From Marivibrio halodurans (lineage in GTDB: Bacteria; Pseudomonadota; Alphaproteobacteria; UBA8366; Aestuariispiraceae): a stretch of DNA of 64,000 nucleotides. This document shows, one piece after another, positions 4,178-44,855 of this stretch. The notes beneath the pieces were generated by a model. It was not told the DNA's origin and did not search any database. It saw nothing but the letters and a program-made list of their open reading frames with translations. The DNA lies in NCBI RefSeq assembly GCF_017963645.1, contig NZ_JAGMWN010000001.1:124001-188000 (forward strand), read 5' to 3'. A program made the translations under genes and the position numbers. The number at the start of each line of letters is the position of its first letter. The first letter of the stretch is position 1.

Positions 4178-6373
4178 ATGTGGCGCACGTTTCAAGAGGG
4201 CCGACGCGGGCCGCGCCGGTGGATCGACGGCAGGTTGGCGCGTCTCGGACGGCTCGGTTCGGCGCGCGCGATCGAACGCGCCCTAACGGCCGAGCGGGAA
4301 CGGTGGGCGCTCTGGGCGCCGGTGGCCTTCGGCGCGGGCATCGCCGTCTATTTCGCCTTGCCCCTGGAGCCGCCACCCTGGAGCGGCGCGGCGATCGCCG
4401 GGATCGCGGGGGCCGGTTTGCTGGCGATCCGGGGCGGTCGGTCGGCTATCCTCGTCCTTTTGCTCTCCGCGGTCTTGTGCGCCGGGCTGGGATTCCTCCG
4501 TGTCGGTCTGGAGACGCAGCGCGTGGCCGCCCCGACGCTTCACCGGGATGCCGGTGTCACCCGGATCGCCGGAACCGTGACGGCGGTGGAAGCCTTCGCG
4601 GACGGACCGCGCGTGGTGTTGAACCGGATCGATTATCGGTGGCGCGCGCCGGACCCGGCGCCGGAGACGGTTCGTATCCGCCTTTCGGCCGGAGATAGCG
4701 TGCGGATCGGCGAGCGGATCGAACTCCTCGCCATCCTGCGCGCGCCGCCCCGACCGGCCTATCCCGGCGCCTATGATTTCGCCCGGCGGGCCTGGTTCGA
4801 GGGGCTGGGCGCCGTCGGTTTCGCGCTCGGCGGGTCGGAACCGGTCGTCGGCGCCGGGGGGATGGACGATCTCGGCGGGGGGCTCCGCGCGCGGGCCTTC
4901 GTCGATGCGCGCCGGCAGGAGATTACCCGCGCGATCCGCGACGGGTTGGCGGGGGAGGCGGGCGCGGTCGCCGCGGCCCTCATCACCGGCGACCGCAGCG
5001 GTCTGTCGGAGGAGGCGGTGGAGGCGATGCGGCGCTCCGGCCTGGCCCATCTGCTGGCCATATCGGGGCTGCATATCGGGTTGGCGGCGGGGATCGTCTT
5101 CGTCGGGTTGCGGGCGCTGTTGGCCATGCATGAGGGCACGGCGCTGCGCCGGCCGATCAAGAAATGGGCGGCCGCCGCCGCGCTGGTCGCGGCCTTCGTC
5201 TATCTGCTGCTGGCGGGGGCGACGGTGCCGACTCAGCGCGCCTTCCTGATGACGGGCCTGGTCCTGATCGCGGTCATGCTGGACCGCAAGGCGATATCGC
5301 TGCGTCTCGTCGCCATCGCGGCGGCGGTCGTCCTGCTGCTCGCCCCGCAGAGCGTGCTGGGGGCGAGCTTCCAGCTTTCCTTCGCGGCCGTCACCGCGTT
5401 GGTCGCGGTCTATGAGGGGGGGCGGCCGCTCGCGCGGGAGGAGGGAGAAGGCGATGCCGACCGCACGGCGCGCTGGATGCGGCGTATCGTGCGCTATTTG
5501 CTGCTGATCGTGGCGACGACCCTGATCGCGGGCGCTGCGACGGCCCCCTTCGCCCTGCATCACTTCGGGCGGATGGCGAATTACGGCGTGATCGGCAATC
5601 TACTGGCGATTCCGCTGATGGCCTGGATGGTCATGCCGGCCGGGGTGCTGGCGATGTTGGCCATGCCCTTCGGGCTGGAAGCCTGGCCGCTCGCCGCGAT
5701 GGGGCAGGGGATCGAGTGGATCCTGGCGATCGCGCGGTTCGTCGCCGCGCTGCCGGGGGCCAGTATCCAGGTCGCGGCGAGCCCGGCCTGGGCGGCGGCC
5801 CTGATCGCGGGGGGCGGGTTATGGGCGGCGCTATGGCGCGGGCGCTGGCGGTTTTGGGGCGCGTTGCCGCTCGCCTGCGGCATGCTGCTGCCGCTGCTCG
5901 CGGATCAGCCGCACCTCATCGTCTCCGGCACGGGGCGTCAGATCGCGGTGACGGGGCCGGACGGCGGTTTCTGGCTGCAGCATCCCAGGCGGGAAAGTTT
6001 CGCGACCGGCGTCTGGTCGGAACGCACGGGCCGCGCCGTCGCGGGCGGCTGGGAGACGCTGTTGACGGGCGCGGGGCCGGGACCGCCGCTCGCCTGCGGG
6101 CCGCTCGGCTGCCATTATCGCTGGGGCGACCGGGTGGTCGCGATCTCCTATGACCCTCGCACCCTCGCGGAGGATTGCCGCCATGCCGATGTGGTCGTCT
6201 CCACCGTGGCGCCGCCCCGGGCGCTGCGCGAAGGGCTGTGCCGCGACCGCCGGCTGATCGATCCGGCGGCGCTCGCGCGTCAGGGCACGCACGCACTCAT
6301 CCTGCGCGATGATCGCCCGCCAGCGGTACGAACCGTGGAAGCCGCGCGCGGCGCGCGTCCCTGGAGCCGGTAA
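4178..6373 (+). CDS. comEC: ComEC/Rec2-family DNA uptake channel protein
   Basis: Polytopic inner-membrane protein that in competent bacteria moves single-stranded DNA across the cytoplasmic membrane. An N-terminal soluble OB-like part (about residues 100-220) is followed by the Competence domain. That domain carries the signature HLLAISGLHIGL, AGATVPTQRAFLM and the run of membrane helices from about residue 280 to 550. The C-terminal 150 residues are short and show no clear metallo-beta-lactamase motifs, as in many proteobacterial versions. The start could be 4163 or 4178; the latter (MWRTF) is used. No other competence genes are in the window, so uptake is inferred from the family only. It converges on lexA with only 22 bp between them. 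Confidence 0.93.
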   Translation: MWRTFQEGRRGPRRWIDGRLARLGRLGSARAIERALTAERERWALWAPVAFGAGIAVYFALPLEPPPWSGAAIAGIAGAGLLAIRGGRSAILVLLLSAVLCAGLGFLRVGLETQRVAAPTLHRDAGVTRIAGTVTAVEAFADGPRVVLNRIDYRWRAPDPAPETVRIRLSAGDSVRIGERIELLAILRAPPRPAYPGAYDFARRAWFEGLGAVGFALGGSEPVVGAGGMDDLGGGLRARAFVDARRQEITRAIRDGLAGEAGAVAAALITGDRSGLSEEAVEAMRRSGLAHLLAISGLHIGLAAGIVFVGLRALLAMHEGTALRRPIKKWAAAAALVAAFVYLLLAGATVPTQRAFLMTGLVLIAVMLDRKAISLRLVAIAAAVVLLLAPQSVLGASFQLSFAAVTALVAVYEGGRPLAREEGEGDADRTARWMRRIVRYLLLIVATTLIAGAATAPFALHHFGRMANYGVIGNLLAIPLMAWMVMPAGVLAMLAMPFGLEAWPLAAMGQGIEWILAIARFVAALPGASIQVAASPAWAAALIAGGGLWAALWRGRWRFWGALPLACGMLLPLLADQPHLIVSGTGRQIAVTGPDGGFWLQHPRRESFATGVWSERTGRAVAGGWETLLTGAGPGPPLACGPLGCHYRWGDRVVAISYDPRTLAEDCRHADVVVSTVAPPRALREGLCRDRRLIDPAALARQGTHALILRDDRPPAVRTVEAARGARPWSR

Positions 6374-7091: not shown

Positions 7092-7227
7092 GGCGGTGTC
7101 GTCTCCTGTCCCGGTTCGCGATCGCCGTCCGGCCAAGGTCCGCATCGGGACGCGCACGGTACCAAGGCACAGGACCAAGGTTGGTCGCGCGAAGGGACCA
7201 TATGCCGAACAAACATAAAACAATAGC

Positions 7228-7242
7228 GTTCTATAAGTGTTC
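7228..7242 (-). promoter_or_regulatory. LexA (SOS) box in the lexA promoter
   Basis: The sequence GTTCTATAAGTGTTC is a perfect GTTC-N7-GTTC, the alphaproteobacterial LexA operator (GAAC-N7-GAAC read on the lexA strand). A TTGACA -35 element (7251-7256 read on the minus strand) stands just upstream, so the box covers the spacer and -10 region of the lexA promoter. Confidence 0.9.
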
Positions 7243-41992: not shown

Positions 41993-44050
41993 CTATTCCC
42001 GGGCCATCGCCCGGATCAGGAAACGGCCGGGGTGAAGCGCGGCCATATCCTCCGCCGTCAACGGCGAGACGCCGCCGGTCAGTTCGGCCGCCAGCATGTC
42101 CGCCAGCAGCGGGGCCAGTTGGTACCCGCGTGCGCCCAGCATCGCAACCGTGAAGAGCCCGGGACGATCCCAAGCCGTGATCTTTGTTTCGTCGCCATCG
42201 GGCGGGCTGTCGCGCCGAACCCCGCGTGCCCCCCGCGCCAATCCGCGGAGCGATCGGCGATAGGCCCTGTCGTCCGGCACCGGCCCCGCCATCGGCAGAT
42301 GGTCGGGTGTGGTGGCGCGCACGCCGGTCCAGCTCTCCGGGACCGCGCCGGAGAACGCGTCGGCGATTCGCGCGGCGGTGTCCGGACGGCTCATCGCGAT
42401 GCGGTCGAGGCACATGCGCAGGCTCTCGTCATGCAGGCCGGATTCGGCCGCCAAGGCATCGTCCGGCGTGGCACCAGGGCGCGCGCTCGCCCCCAGGACG
42501 GCGCGCTCGCCATATTGCGCACCGAGCGGTTGGGTCAGGAATCCGACGCGATTGACCGCATGGGCGAGGTCCGAGCCGGGGACGAGGAACAGCCGGCCAC
42601 CGGCATGGCGCGCGACGCCGCGAATATCGCTCTCCGGCAGCAGGTCGAGGCTCCAGGGGCCGGCGGCCAGGATCGCGACCGGCGCCGAGGTGACCGCTTC
42701 CCCGTCGGCGTCGAGTGCTCGCCACAGGCCGTTGTGCCGGTCCAGCCGCGTGACGGTAGCGGCGATCGTGGCGCCGCCGAGGGCGGCGGTTCGCGTATCC
42801 AGCCAATCGTGCAAGACCGCCGGGTCGATGACGCCCGCGCGTGGGTGGTGCAGGTCCTTCCCGTCGTGGGTCAGCAGGCTCTCCGGCCAGTCGAGAGCGT
42901 CGACGAGCGCCGCGTGGCGCCCCCGCCAATCGGTCTTGCCGGCCCGTGCCGGTTCGCTCACGCCGCGCGCGAGCCACAGGCCGGGCTTTTCCGCCGCGAT
43001 GGTCTCGTAACGCCGCAGCGCATCGAGGTAGGCGAGGGCCGAGAGCCGCGCATAGGCATCGCCGCCGCGCACCAGCTTCGGCGCAAGCAGTATCGCGGGC
43101 GGGTGCGGGACCGCCCCGCCGTCCGGTGTCCGCGGGGCGATTCGGGTGACGGCCATGCCGTATTCCGCCAGGGCATGCGCGCAGCACCGCGCCGCGATCC
43201 CATCGCCGACGACCAGCATGGCCGTTCCGCCGGGCCGGGCCGTCGGACGCTGGTGCCAGGGCGCGCGGCGCGGCGCGGGGGCCGGGGTTCCGGGACGCGA
43301 AGGGGCGGTGCCGTCCCCCTCGGGAAACCGCGCCATGAGGCAATGGCGCTTTCGCCCGAATCCCGGGCGGCGCGTGACCTGCGCGCCTGCCTGTTGGAGC
43401 GCGCGGCGCACCGCGCCGGCGGCCGTGAAGCTGGCCAGCCGCGCGCCGGGGGCGCAAAGCCGCGTTACCTGACCGATCACCGTCTCGGTCCACATATCCG
43501 GATTGGCGGCGGGCGCGAACCCGTCGAGGAACCAAGCATCGGCCGCCGCCTCCATGCGGGAAAGACCGGCCGCCGCCTCGTCCAGCATCAGCGTCAGGCG
43601 AACGCCGGCCTCCGGAAACGCGATCCGATGCGGACCGCGATAGGGGGGCGGCCATTGGGCGCGCAGTTCGGCGGCGTCCGTCGCCAGATCTTCCGGCAAG
43701 AGCCGGTGCGCACGGGCCAGATCCGGGCCGTCGAGCGGATAGCCCTCGACCGACAGGATATCCAGCAGCGCCCCGGCCGGCCGCCGGTTACGCGTCTTCC
43801 GCCAGGCGTCGATCAACAGCAGGACGCTCAAGCCGGTGCCGAATCCGGTCTCGCCGACCGTGAAGCGCTCACGTCCCGTCCAGGCCTCCGGCAGGCCGCA
43901 TCCTTCGAGGAAGACGTGCCGCCGCTCCCCCACCGGGTCCGCGCCGTCGAAATAGGCATCGCCGAACCCCTCGGCGCGGGGAATACCGTTGTCGTCCCAT
44001 GTCAGGCCAGGGTGCGGCACGCGCGGGTCGGTGGGCGCGGATCGGCTCAT
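41993..44050 (-). CDS. mnmC: Bifunctional tRNA mnm5s2U34 biosynthesis protein MnmC
   Basis: Finishes the wobble-uridine modification mnm5s2U34 in several tRNAs. The 685-residue protein has an N-terminal methyltransferase domain MnmD (about residues 1-240; FTVGETGFGTGLSVLLLIDA, WFLDGFAPAANPDMWTETV). A C-terminal FAD-dependent oxidoreductase domain follows (about 265-660; MLVVGDGIAARCCAHALAEYG for FAD binding). The dinucleotide motif reads GDGIAA where most have GxGIAG. The two domains are fused as in E. coli. Position between the NGG synthetase and nnr genes suggests no functional link. The gene is bordered on both sides by short triple tandem repeats. Confidence 0.95.
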   Translation of the reverse strand: MSRSAPTDPRVPHPGLTWDDNGIPRAEGFGDAYFDGADPVGERRHVFLEGCGLPEAWTGRERFTVGETGFGTGLSVLLLIDAWRKTRNRRPAGALLDILSVEGYPLDGPDLARAHRLLPEDLATDAAELRAQWPPPYRGPHRIAFPEAGVRLTLMLDEAAAGLSRMEAAADAWFLDGFAPAANPDMWTETVIGQVTRLCAPGARLASFTAAGAVRRALQQAGAQVTRRPGFGRKRHCLMARFPEGDGTAPSRPGTPAPAPRRAPWHQRPTARPGGTAMLVVGDGIAARCCAHALAEYGMAVTRIAPRTPDGGAVPHPPAILLAPKLVRGGDAYARLSALAYLDALRRYETIAAEKPGLWLARGVSEPARAGKTDWRGRHAALVDALDWPESLLTHDGKDLHHPRAGVIDPAVLHDWLDTRTAALGGATIAATVTRLDRHNGLWRALDADGEAVTSAPVAILAAGPWSLDLLPESDIRGVARHAGGRLFLVPGSDLAHAVNRVGFLTQPLGAQYGERAVLGASARPGATPDDALAAESGLHDESLRMCLDRIAMSRPDTAARIADAFSGAVPESWTGVRATTPDHLPMAGPVPDDRAYRRSLRGLARGARGVRRDSPPDGDETKITAWDRPGLFTVAMLGARGYQLAPLLADMLAAELTGGVSPLTAEDMAALHPGRFLIRAMARE

Positions 44051-44097
44051 GGGGTGGGTTGTAGGACGGGAGGCGCCGATTTGGAACCGCCCGGTTG

Positions 44098-44136
44098 GAG
44101 CTAGCGGCTGGAGCTAGCGGCTGGAGCTAGCGGCTG
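44098..44136 (+). repeat. Three tandem copies of a 13-bp unit upstream of mnmC
   Basis: GAGCTAGCGGCTG is repeated perfectly three times at 44098-44110, 44111-44123 and 44124-44136. The array lies 48 bp upstream of the mnmC ATG, between it and the minus-strand terminator, so it is within the mnmC promoter or leader. The unit differs from the array beyond the gene's other end. Confidence 0.9.
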
Positions 44137-44181
44137 GAGCCACCTAGGGCGCCGTGTTCGTCATCGGGGCCGGGCACGTGC

Positions 44182-44245
44182 AAAAAAAAAGCGACGAAGC
44201 ACGCCCAGCCTACACTTAATCTCATCGGCTGGGTGCGCTCGTCGC
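44182..44245 (-). terminator. Strong intrinsic terminator on the minus strand, upstream of mnmC
   Basis: On the minus strand a stem of about 20 bp ends directly in nine T residues (A run at 44182-44190 on the plus strand). It is formed by GCGACGA and CCAGCC blocks with a short internal mismatch, and the arms lie at 44191-44210 and 44227-44245. A second hairpin, GCCCGT-TCT-ACGGGC, lies just before it at 44251-44265. The terminator points towards mnmC but ends before it, so it closes a separate short transcript or acts as a leader stop. Confidence 0.8.
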
Positions 44246-44358
44246 CAGTAGCCCGTAGAACGGGCGGTTGGTCGATGGGAAGACGGTAATGCCCGGTCTT
44301 TACATCGCAGTGACAGTGATATGGCACGCAAGTGACCATGTCCGGCGGTGTTTTGGAG
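44182..44358 (-). ncRNA. Candidate small RNA ending at the strong terminator
   Basis: No gene is found in 44051-44507, but the minus strand has a well-formed terminator at 44182-44245, a preceding hairpin at 44251-44265, and a TATAGT hexamer (44366-44371) that could serve as a -10. A transcript from there would be about 180 nt and rich in structure. The -35 element is poor, and no known RNA family is recognised, so this is an inference from structure alone. Confidence 0.3.
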
Positions 44359-44507
44359 TCTTGTAACTATATTTCTTCTGCTTGATGGAATAGGCAATTC
44401 GGCTTATATCGAAAGATGGCTTGCTTTGGGGCCGGTCGGGCCGGCCCCGCTCGGCGGACAGGTCGCGGCGGCCTGGATATCACGCTGGCCGGGATGAGGT
44501 CTGGACC

Positions 44508-44855
44508 ATGTCGTTGTTCGGCGGATTGTTCGGCGCGCGTCGTGGCGCGGAGGAGCGGGAGCACGATCGCGCGCCCGGTCACGGCGTGCGGGTGCGGATC
44601 GACCGGAACACCTATCAGGTGGAGGATTTGTCGGCCGTCGGCTTCCGCATCAATCCCTATGACGGGGATTTGATCGCGCGGCAGCAGTTCACCTTTCGCT
44701 TCCAGCTCGTTCTGAACGGGGAATCACATGATTTCCCCTGCCAGGGATATGTGGTGCGAATCGACGAGAATGGCCTCGCGGCAAAGTATCAGCGCCCGCA
44801 GCCCTATTACCAGCACGTCCTGGTCGAGTTTCTGCGCGCCACCGCCCGCGCCTGA
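44508..44855 (+). CDS. PilZ-domain protein
   Basis: A 115-residue protein. After a short N-terminal segment, REHDR (residues 17-21) matches the RxxxR motif and DLSAVG (residues 40-45) matches DxSxxG, the two motifs by which PilZ domains hold cyclic-di-GMP. Beta strands follow (FRFQLVLNGESHDFPCQGYV and RIDENGLAAKY). With both motifs intact it probably binds c-di-GMP. Partner unknown; no flagellar, cellulose or pilus gene is near. The ATG at 44508 is used; an upstream in-frame stretch is not protein-like. Confidence 0.8.
   Translation: MSLFGGLFGARRGAEEREHDRAPGHGVRVRIDRNTYQVEDLSAVGFRINPYDGDLIARQQFTFRFQLVLNGESHDFPCQGYVVRIDENGLAAKYQRPQPYYQHVLVEFLRATARA

Follow-up and report, generated by a model that had tools for sequence, protein, structure and literature searches.

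The gene-free interval 44051-44507 of the window (the whole analysed stretch of 64,000 nucleotides of Marivibrio halodurans DNA) raises the question of whether the terminator within it ends an RNA of its own, and of what such an RNA would do. On one side the interval is bounded by mnmC, a minus-strand gene that starts at 44050, and on the other by the next plus-strand gene at 44508, as the first-pass annotation had described, and the lower GC content reported for this region is also borne out (53.7% over 44182-44371 vs 65.8% for the whole window). That annotation had suggested a possible small RNA (sRNA) encoded on the minus strand, and our analysis supports such a gene with its end at the terminator. 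The best explanation of the locus is a free-standing sRNA gene that is switched on by PhoB under phosphate scarcity, a reading to which we assign a probability of about 0.72. It draws on four properties that we computed: the conservation of the element, its covarying structure, the Pho-box-like architecture of its promoter and its independence from mnmC. By sequence the element has its own promoter and an intrinsic terminator, and it stands alone as a gene.

Anatomy and folding of the predicted RNA

The predicted sRNA gene spans 44182-44276 on the minus strand, with A 44276 as the predicted +1, and would yield an RNA of ~95 nt. These limits follow from a covariance model, from matches in the family and from single folds, and they do not support the length of ~180-190 nt that had been suggested. 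The RNA opens with an unpaired 5' end, AUCGACCAACC (44266-44276), a candidate seed that is identical in 10 of the 11 homologues; the corresponding segment of G007, AUCGACCGACC, carries one substitution. It is followed by the perfect hairpin GCCCGT-TCT-ACGGGC at 44265-44251, present on the minus strand as first described, whose pairs 1, 3, 5 and 6 show two-sided changes in relatives. The terminator hairpin (44246-44190, minus strand) likewise matches its earlier description, as its stem of 19 bp in the window encloses a 16-nt loop and leads into nine T at 44190-44182, a tract that constitutes the terminator and, judged by its sequence, a potential Hfq-binding tail. The loop, GAUGAGAUUAAGNGUA (44211-44226, minus strand), is variable at N only in 10 of the 11 homologues, and this conservation makes it a second candidate seed or a candidate protein site.

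The 96-nt stretch 44277-44182 folds with an energy of -46.2 kcal/mol, as compared to -28.1 (sd 3.05) for 200 dinucleotide shuffles, which corresponds to a z of -5.93, and none of the 200 shuffles folds as low. All nine sequences that were folded singly, a set from which G013 and G007 were left out, adopt one common plan that consists of 12 unpaired 5' bases, a hairpin, a linker and a terminator hairpin that is long and bears the conserved loop; their z values range from -1.87 to -5.93, the weakest being that of G011, for which 14 of 200 shuffles are as good. In its longer versions the 5' hairpin contains an inner stem. A simple terminator scan, which admits loops of only 3-8 nt, returned just a 5-pair version and did no better than on shuffles (1 vs a mean of 0.8).

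The first-pass annotation had named compensatory changes as a check, and they are found among relatives in both hairpins. In the terminator stem 98.2% of cells are paired and 7 of the 15 modelled pairs have changed on both sides; its covariation score of 0.422, obtained from an alignment that was fitted to the structure and thus leans towards it, compares with 0.190 (sd 0.027) after shuffling and is reached by 0 of 500 shuffles. The count of further pair types is matched by 14 of 500 shuffles, and the score falls to at most 0.135 when the partners are displaced by 1 to 3 columns. Covariation of the 5' hairpin was counted on hand-picked arms, and three of its variants, found in closely related genomes, may represent one event. 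Stems that drift with compensation while the loops do not vary are expected where the unpaired parts of an RNA carry its activity, and conserved unpaired segments for pairing are present here in the 5' end and the loop.

Several other readings of these segments were tried and rejected. A pseudoknot between CAUCG at the 5' end and CGAUG in the loop can be drawn in ten sequences (some with G-U pairs); it is ruled against by G007, in which two of the five pairs are lost without compensation, and by the position of its C, which lies 5' of the predicted +1. The loop reads CUGAUGAG in some homologues, which we take to resemble a hammerhead motif, but no partner core was seen and the window gave no Rfam match to one. 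A short peptide starting at the AUG of the loop is likewise rejected, as G011 has Arg in place of Ser at codon 4 and the sequence of G007 is one base shorter.

Distribution within the family

Of 59 genomes searched at the DNA level, 13 contained matches. One element is common to the window's own genome (G000) and nine others, all of the same GTDB family; the remaining three matches (L011-L013) are short, were attributed to chance and were not used. A covariance model built from the 10 sequences of this element matches 11 of the 14 family genomes, with E values from 5.7e-8 to 3.6e-28, and these include an eleventh homologue, that of G007, which stands outside the model and is detected independently at 5.7e-8. 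Scans of 43 genomes of the order and of 385 genomes sampled from the class, run with stricter filters that may lose weak matches, gave 11 and 3 matches, respectively, all within the family, and no homologue outside the GTDB family was found in these sampled genomes.

Three family genomes have no detected copy of the RNA. G002 and G004 give only matches at an E of 0.5 or worse, none of them at nnr, and G006 gives no match to the covariance model; around nnr in all three there are isolated motif-like matches and no correctly arranged pair. Each has phoB, PstS-like genes and nnr, so the RNA is not a necessary component of the Pho response.

When the GTDB r220 contigs were scanned with an exact pattern, 9 matched; the species-named isolates among these are Hwanghaeella grinnelliae Gri0909 and Pacificispira spongiicola KN72; NCBI places both genera in the Aestuariispiraceae. 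Another contig (L030) has a public record under the flavobacterial title Mesoflavibacter sp., which looks wrong because the contig carries the alphaproteobacterial sRNA locus. A blastn search of plasmids gave no match.

Search for targets

Candidate targets were sought as near-exact complements of the conserved segments, excluding G-U pairs, and none emerged from this shallow search. The pattern TACNCTTAATCTCATC, with up to 2 mismatches, occurs at 46 places in 14 genomes and GGTTGGTCGAT, matched exactly, at 85; in each case 10 of the places are the RNA gene itself. Reversed-pattern controls are far lower (7 and 11, respectively). Markov models trained on 222 kb expect 20-31 places for TACNCTTAATCTCATC and 43-107 for GGTTGGTCGAT, so that the 36 and 75 places outside the RNA gene represent no clear excess. 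Reading covered 20 of the 36 loci and 26 of the 75, and among those read no gene start recurs; three pairs of related ORFs were encountered (L078/L095, L091/L100 and L110/L135, the last within one genome, G003), in all of which the match lies well within the ORF. At the starts of phoB and pstS, duplex energies are no better than those of controls, and at pstS starts the 5' segment pairs more weakly than controls do (-8.0 vs -10.4, sd of mean 0.74).

A protein-binding role stays in consideration because the complements occur at Markov expectation, no gene start recurs among those read and the phoB and pstS starts show no pairing beyond that of controls. In such a role a PhoB-activated RNA would act by titrating a protein through its large, nearly invariant loop, in place of base-pairing, and the length of the loop is suggestive, as base-pairing seeds usually need less than such a conserved stretch. 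The lack of a recurrent target start points the same way. Set against this, the target search was shallow, being confined to near-exact complements without G-U pairs and to the part of the matches that was read, and no known protein-binding motif was recognised. Overall, we consider titration unlikely.

Promoter architecture and the case for PhoB

The hexamer TATAGT, formerly offered as a promoter element, is present at 44371-44366, but nothing links it to this RNA; it is not supported as the promoter, because the conserved promoter consists of a Pho box and a -10 element that lead to a predicted +1 at ~44276. The hexamer is ~90 nt further upstream than this start, which is conserved, and does not fall within the conserved register. 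On the minus strand the candidate -10, TACCGT (44288-44283), is located 6 nt before the +1 and 10 nt after the predicted Pho box CTGTCAC-N4-ATGTAAA (44316-44299), whose two half-sites, recognised with a matrix from pstS promoters, have an 11-bp period. Two more half-site positions, a weak GTGCCAT (44327-44321) and TGGTCAC (44338-44332), continue the same 11-bp register (44338-44321, minus strand).

GTCAC/GTAAC repeats with an 11-base period are common to the upstream sequences of the homologues. PhoB-box-like repeats precede all 11 homologues, in one register in 10 and shifted by one base in G001, and a weak -10 hexamer comes next, in which -12 is T in 9 of the 11 homologues, -11 is A in 10 and -7 is T in 6. 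The box overlaps the -35 position at a fixed distance from the -10 and the predicted start in 10 of the 11, G001 being one off. A canonical sigma-70 scan found no promoter. In the available text of a Sinorhizobium meliloti study, mapped starts are found 22-25 nt downstream of PhoB boxes that overlap -35 (PMC3616915), and excerpts of an E. coli PhoB study describe a strict spacing that is required for activation (PMC10294691). The promoter resembles pstS-type promoters as the excerpted text of PMC3616915 describes them, in which 11-bp repeats shortly before a weak -10 replace the -35; it differs from them in what is driven, a transporter gene there and a non-coding RNA here.

In order to avoid circularity, the motif was learned from sequences upstream of 14 pstS-like genes (PF12849), 13 of which share a contig with phoB and are within 7 kb of it. 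All 14 family genomes encode PhoB (TIGR02154) and PstS-like proteins (PF12849) above the curated cut-offs. The three best of 12 sampler runs were equal in score and the best was used; the half-site matrix derives from 13 pstS promoters, as the G003 pstS site, whose position is doubtful, was dropped. With this matrix, the best site within 120 nt upstream of the sRNA ranks 1st of 6,110-6,166 positions in 10 of the 11 loci and 2nd in G005, and in the 64-kb window the sRNA site ranks 2nd of 127,936 positions, after 7205-7237. The latter, on the plus strand, is by the pstS matrix the window's best PhoB-type triple half-site (9.7 vs 7.2 for the sRNA site).

Summed over the 11 loci, the period-11 score is 116.6 vs -45.7 (sd 16.0) in shuffles, and 0 of 500 shuffles reach it. 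For periods of 9, 10, 12 and 13, the observed sum is reached by 51, 223, 96 and 10 of 500 shuffles, respectively, which places periods 9, 10 and 12 within about 1.3 sd and period 13 at about 2 sd. At single loci the observed score is reached by 0 to 24 of 500 shuffles and by 0 to 100 of 5,418 control stretches (GC 0.35-0.60), bearing in mind that these controls overlap, that many come from loci picked by the target-search patterns TACNCTTAATCTCATC and GGTTGGTCGAT, and that the upstream stretch of G001, with a GC content of 0.71, falls outside their range. For the site in the window, 24 of 500 shuffles of its upstream stretch score as high, and so do 75 of the 5,418 controls. The result is little affected when the pstS of the genome being scored is excluded, and a matrix from only G002, G004 and G006, which have no detected copy of the RNA, gives a weaker separation (0 to 426 of 5,418, the 426 belonging to G001). 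Single Pho-box sites are thus only moderate, the window's own being among the weaker, and for this reason the case for PhoB rests on the 11 related genomes jointly.

OmpR/PhoB-type regulators commonly bind direct repeats of similar spacing, and the half-sites here are degenerate, so an sRNA under another response regulator of this type that recognises 11-bp direct repeats deserves to be weighed. However, a matrix made solely from pstS promoters, which are classical PhoB targets, found one register in 10 of the 11 loci and a register one base off in the other. The GTCAC/GTAAC repeats also resemble the S. meliloti PhoB query CTGTCAT-N4-CTGTCAT, as given in the available part of PMC2573895. We therefore regard control by such a regulator, and not by PhoB, as distinctly improbable.

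Independence from mnmC and the neighbouring genes

The gene nnr is divergent on the upstream side of the RNA in all 11 genomes. On the downstream side, 8 of the 11 RNA-bearing genomes have mnmC as the next gene, oriented like the RNA, and this arrangement is what speaks for a PhoB-controlled leader or attenuator of mnmC that would act by signal-dependent readthrough of the terminator, an idea close to the regulated leader of the first-pass annotation. The association is not constant, as mnmC is located ~578 kb from the RNA in G003 and on another contig in G007 and G008, yet in these three genomes the RNA, its terminator and the Pho box are kept. The RNA is therefore not an mnmC leader; these genomes largely refute the idea, no conserved alternative pairing was noticed in the structures inspected, and we judge it very improbable indeed. 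The G008 contig that carries the RNA (5,152 bases) has no mnmC in the 3.4 kb downstream. In G007 the RNA is followed first by a tRNA-His gene, which is encoded on the other strand, and then by an aminotransferase gene with the orientation of the RNA; the gene that comes after the terminator in Hwanghaeella grinnelliae (L032) is convergent and encodes a hybrid histidine kinase. That the locus is a mere transcription terminator of a neighbour, without a functional RNA, is barely credible despite the strength of the terminator, as no minus-strand gene was seen up to 44508 (only short mechanically called ORFs), the 5' segment and the loop are conserved and neither is needed by a terminator, and the promoter repeats keep their register.

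Two further features of the neighbourhood were recorded. A tandem array of the 13-bp unit CGGCTGGAGCTAG (3.8 copies, 44092-44140) occupies part of the space between the terminator and mnmC. A small protein is encoded between the sRNA promoter and nnr (44508-44855, plus strand); read from 44508 it has no domain match at an E of 0.001, and read from an upstream start at 44421 it shows a weak PilZ-domain match (E 0.0052) below the Pfam cut-off, as does its orthologue in G001, also below the cut-off. Hwanghaeella has a different small ORF, without a Pfam match, at this position.

Proposed mechanism

The likely PhoB sites that precede the gene suggest that the RNA is probably made when the cell is short of phosphate. 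Taken together, the features of the locus point to what is probably a PhoB-activated, trans-acting sRNA that is assisted by Hfq. In the mechanism that we infer, phosphorylated PhoB would bind the array of 11-bp repeats that stands in for a -35 element and would recruit sigma-70 polymerase to the weak -10. Transcription in the cell would then begin at ~A 44276 and stop at the nine-U terminator, giving the RNA of ~95 nt. Its 3' hairpin and U tail may bind Hfq, which is encoded in the window's genome (the one genome checked); the U-rich tail itself is present. Target mRNAs would be contacted by base-pairing through the 5' end AUCGACCAACC and the loop GAUGAGAUUAAGNGUA, and this pairing would retune their translation under phosphate limitation.

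Relation to known sRNAs

An Rfam 15 search, which the first-pass annotation had recommended, assigns no family to the RNA at gathering score: the four matches in the window at this threshold are all tRNA. Raising the limit to an E of 10 gives four matches, all far below threshold, of which only MH_s10 overlaps the RNA, on the opposite strand and with 12.6 bits vs a threshold of 81. No relevant mention of the conserved segments was found in the open-licence papers searched.

As far as the available excerpts go, sRNAs linked to phosphate are reported in this literature from enteric bacteria, Pseudomonas and rhizobia. S. meliloti, also an alphaproteobacterium, has 45 sRNAs that change in nitrogen or phosphate stress (PMC8829014), and sRNAs whose levels respond to phosphate limitation are described in this species (PMC8829014, PMC2573895). 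In the accessible text of PMC2573895, a putative PhoB site is listed for the predicted candidates smrC15/smrC16, sm25 and sm30, whereas for transcripts raised by starvation the authors see no evident PhoB site. The likeness of these sRNAs to the RNA described here is one of description; no Rfam family is assigned to the latter at gathering score. For the sRNA EsrL of E. coli, control by PhoB is reported (PMC10294691, PMC12351708, both in excerpt), but the control described is repression by PhoB when phosphate is low (PMC12351708), whereas the box position here fits activation; the available text of PMC10294691 states that PhoB binding was not detected in that E. coli study. The same partial source that covers the S. 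meliloti stress responses cites an E. coli sRNA that is induced by PhoB and acts on rpoS with Hfq (PMC8829014), which parallels the PhoB induction proposed here, although it is gammaproteobacterial and the resemblance is again by description. Excerpts of two other papers describe sRNAs that act on phoB (PMC12506140, PMC8565329).

PhoB- or phosphate-linked sRNAs are thus already known as a kind, and the RNA described here is apparently an unnamed member, which we call a new sRNA family because it has no Rfam match at gathering score and its segments have no relevant mention in the literature searched. A precise gene, its promoter and two candidate seeds are now available in the named strains Gri0909 and KN72, and PhoB control and targets are therefore directly testable. 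Phosphate is often limiting for marine bacteria. We give an even chance to the broader view that this RNA founds an undescribed sRNA family confined to one marine alphaproteobacterial family, that of Hwanghaeella and Pacificispira, in which it would form a dedicated RNA arm of the phosphate response under PhoB, with the long and nearly invariant terminator loop as its main interaction surface.
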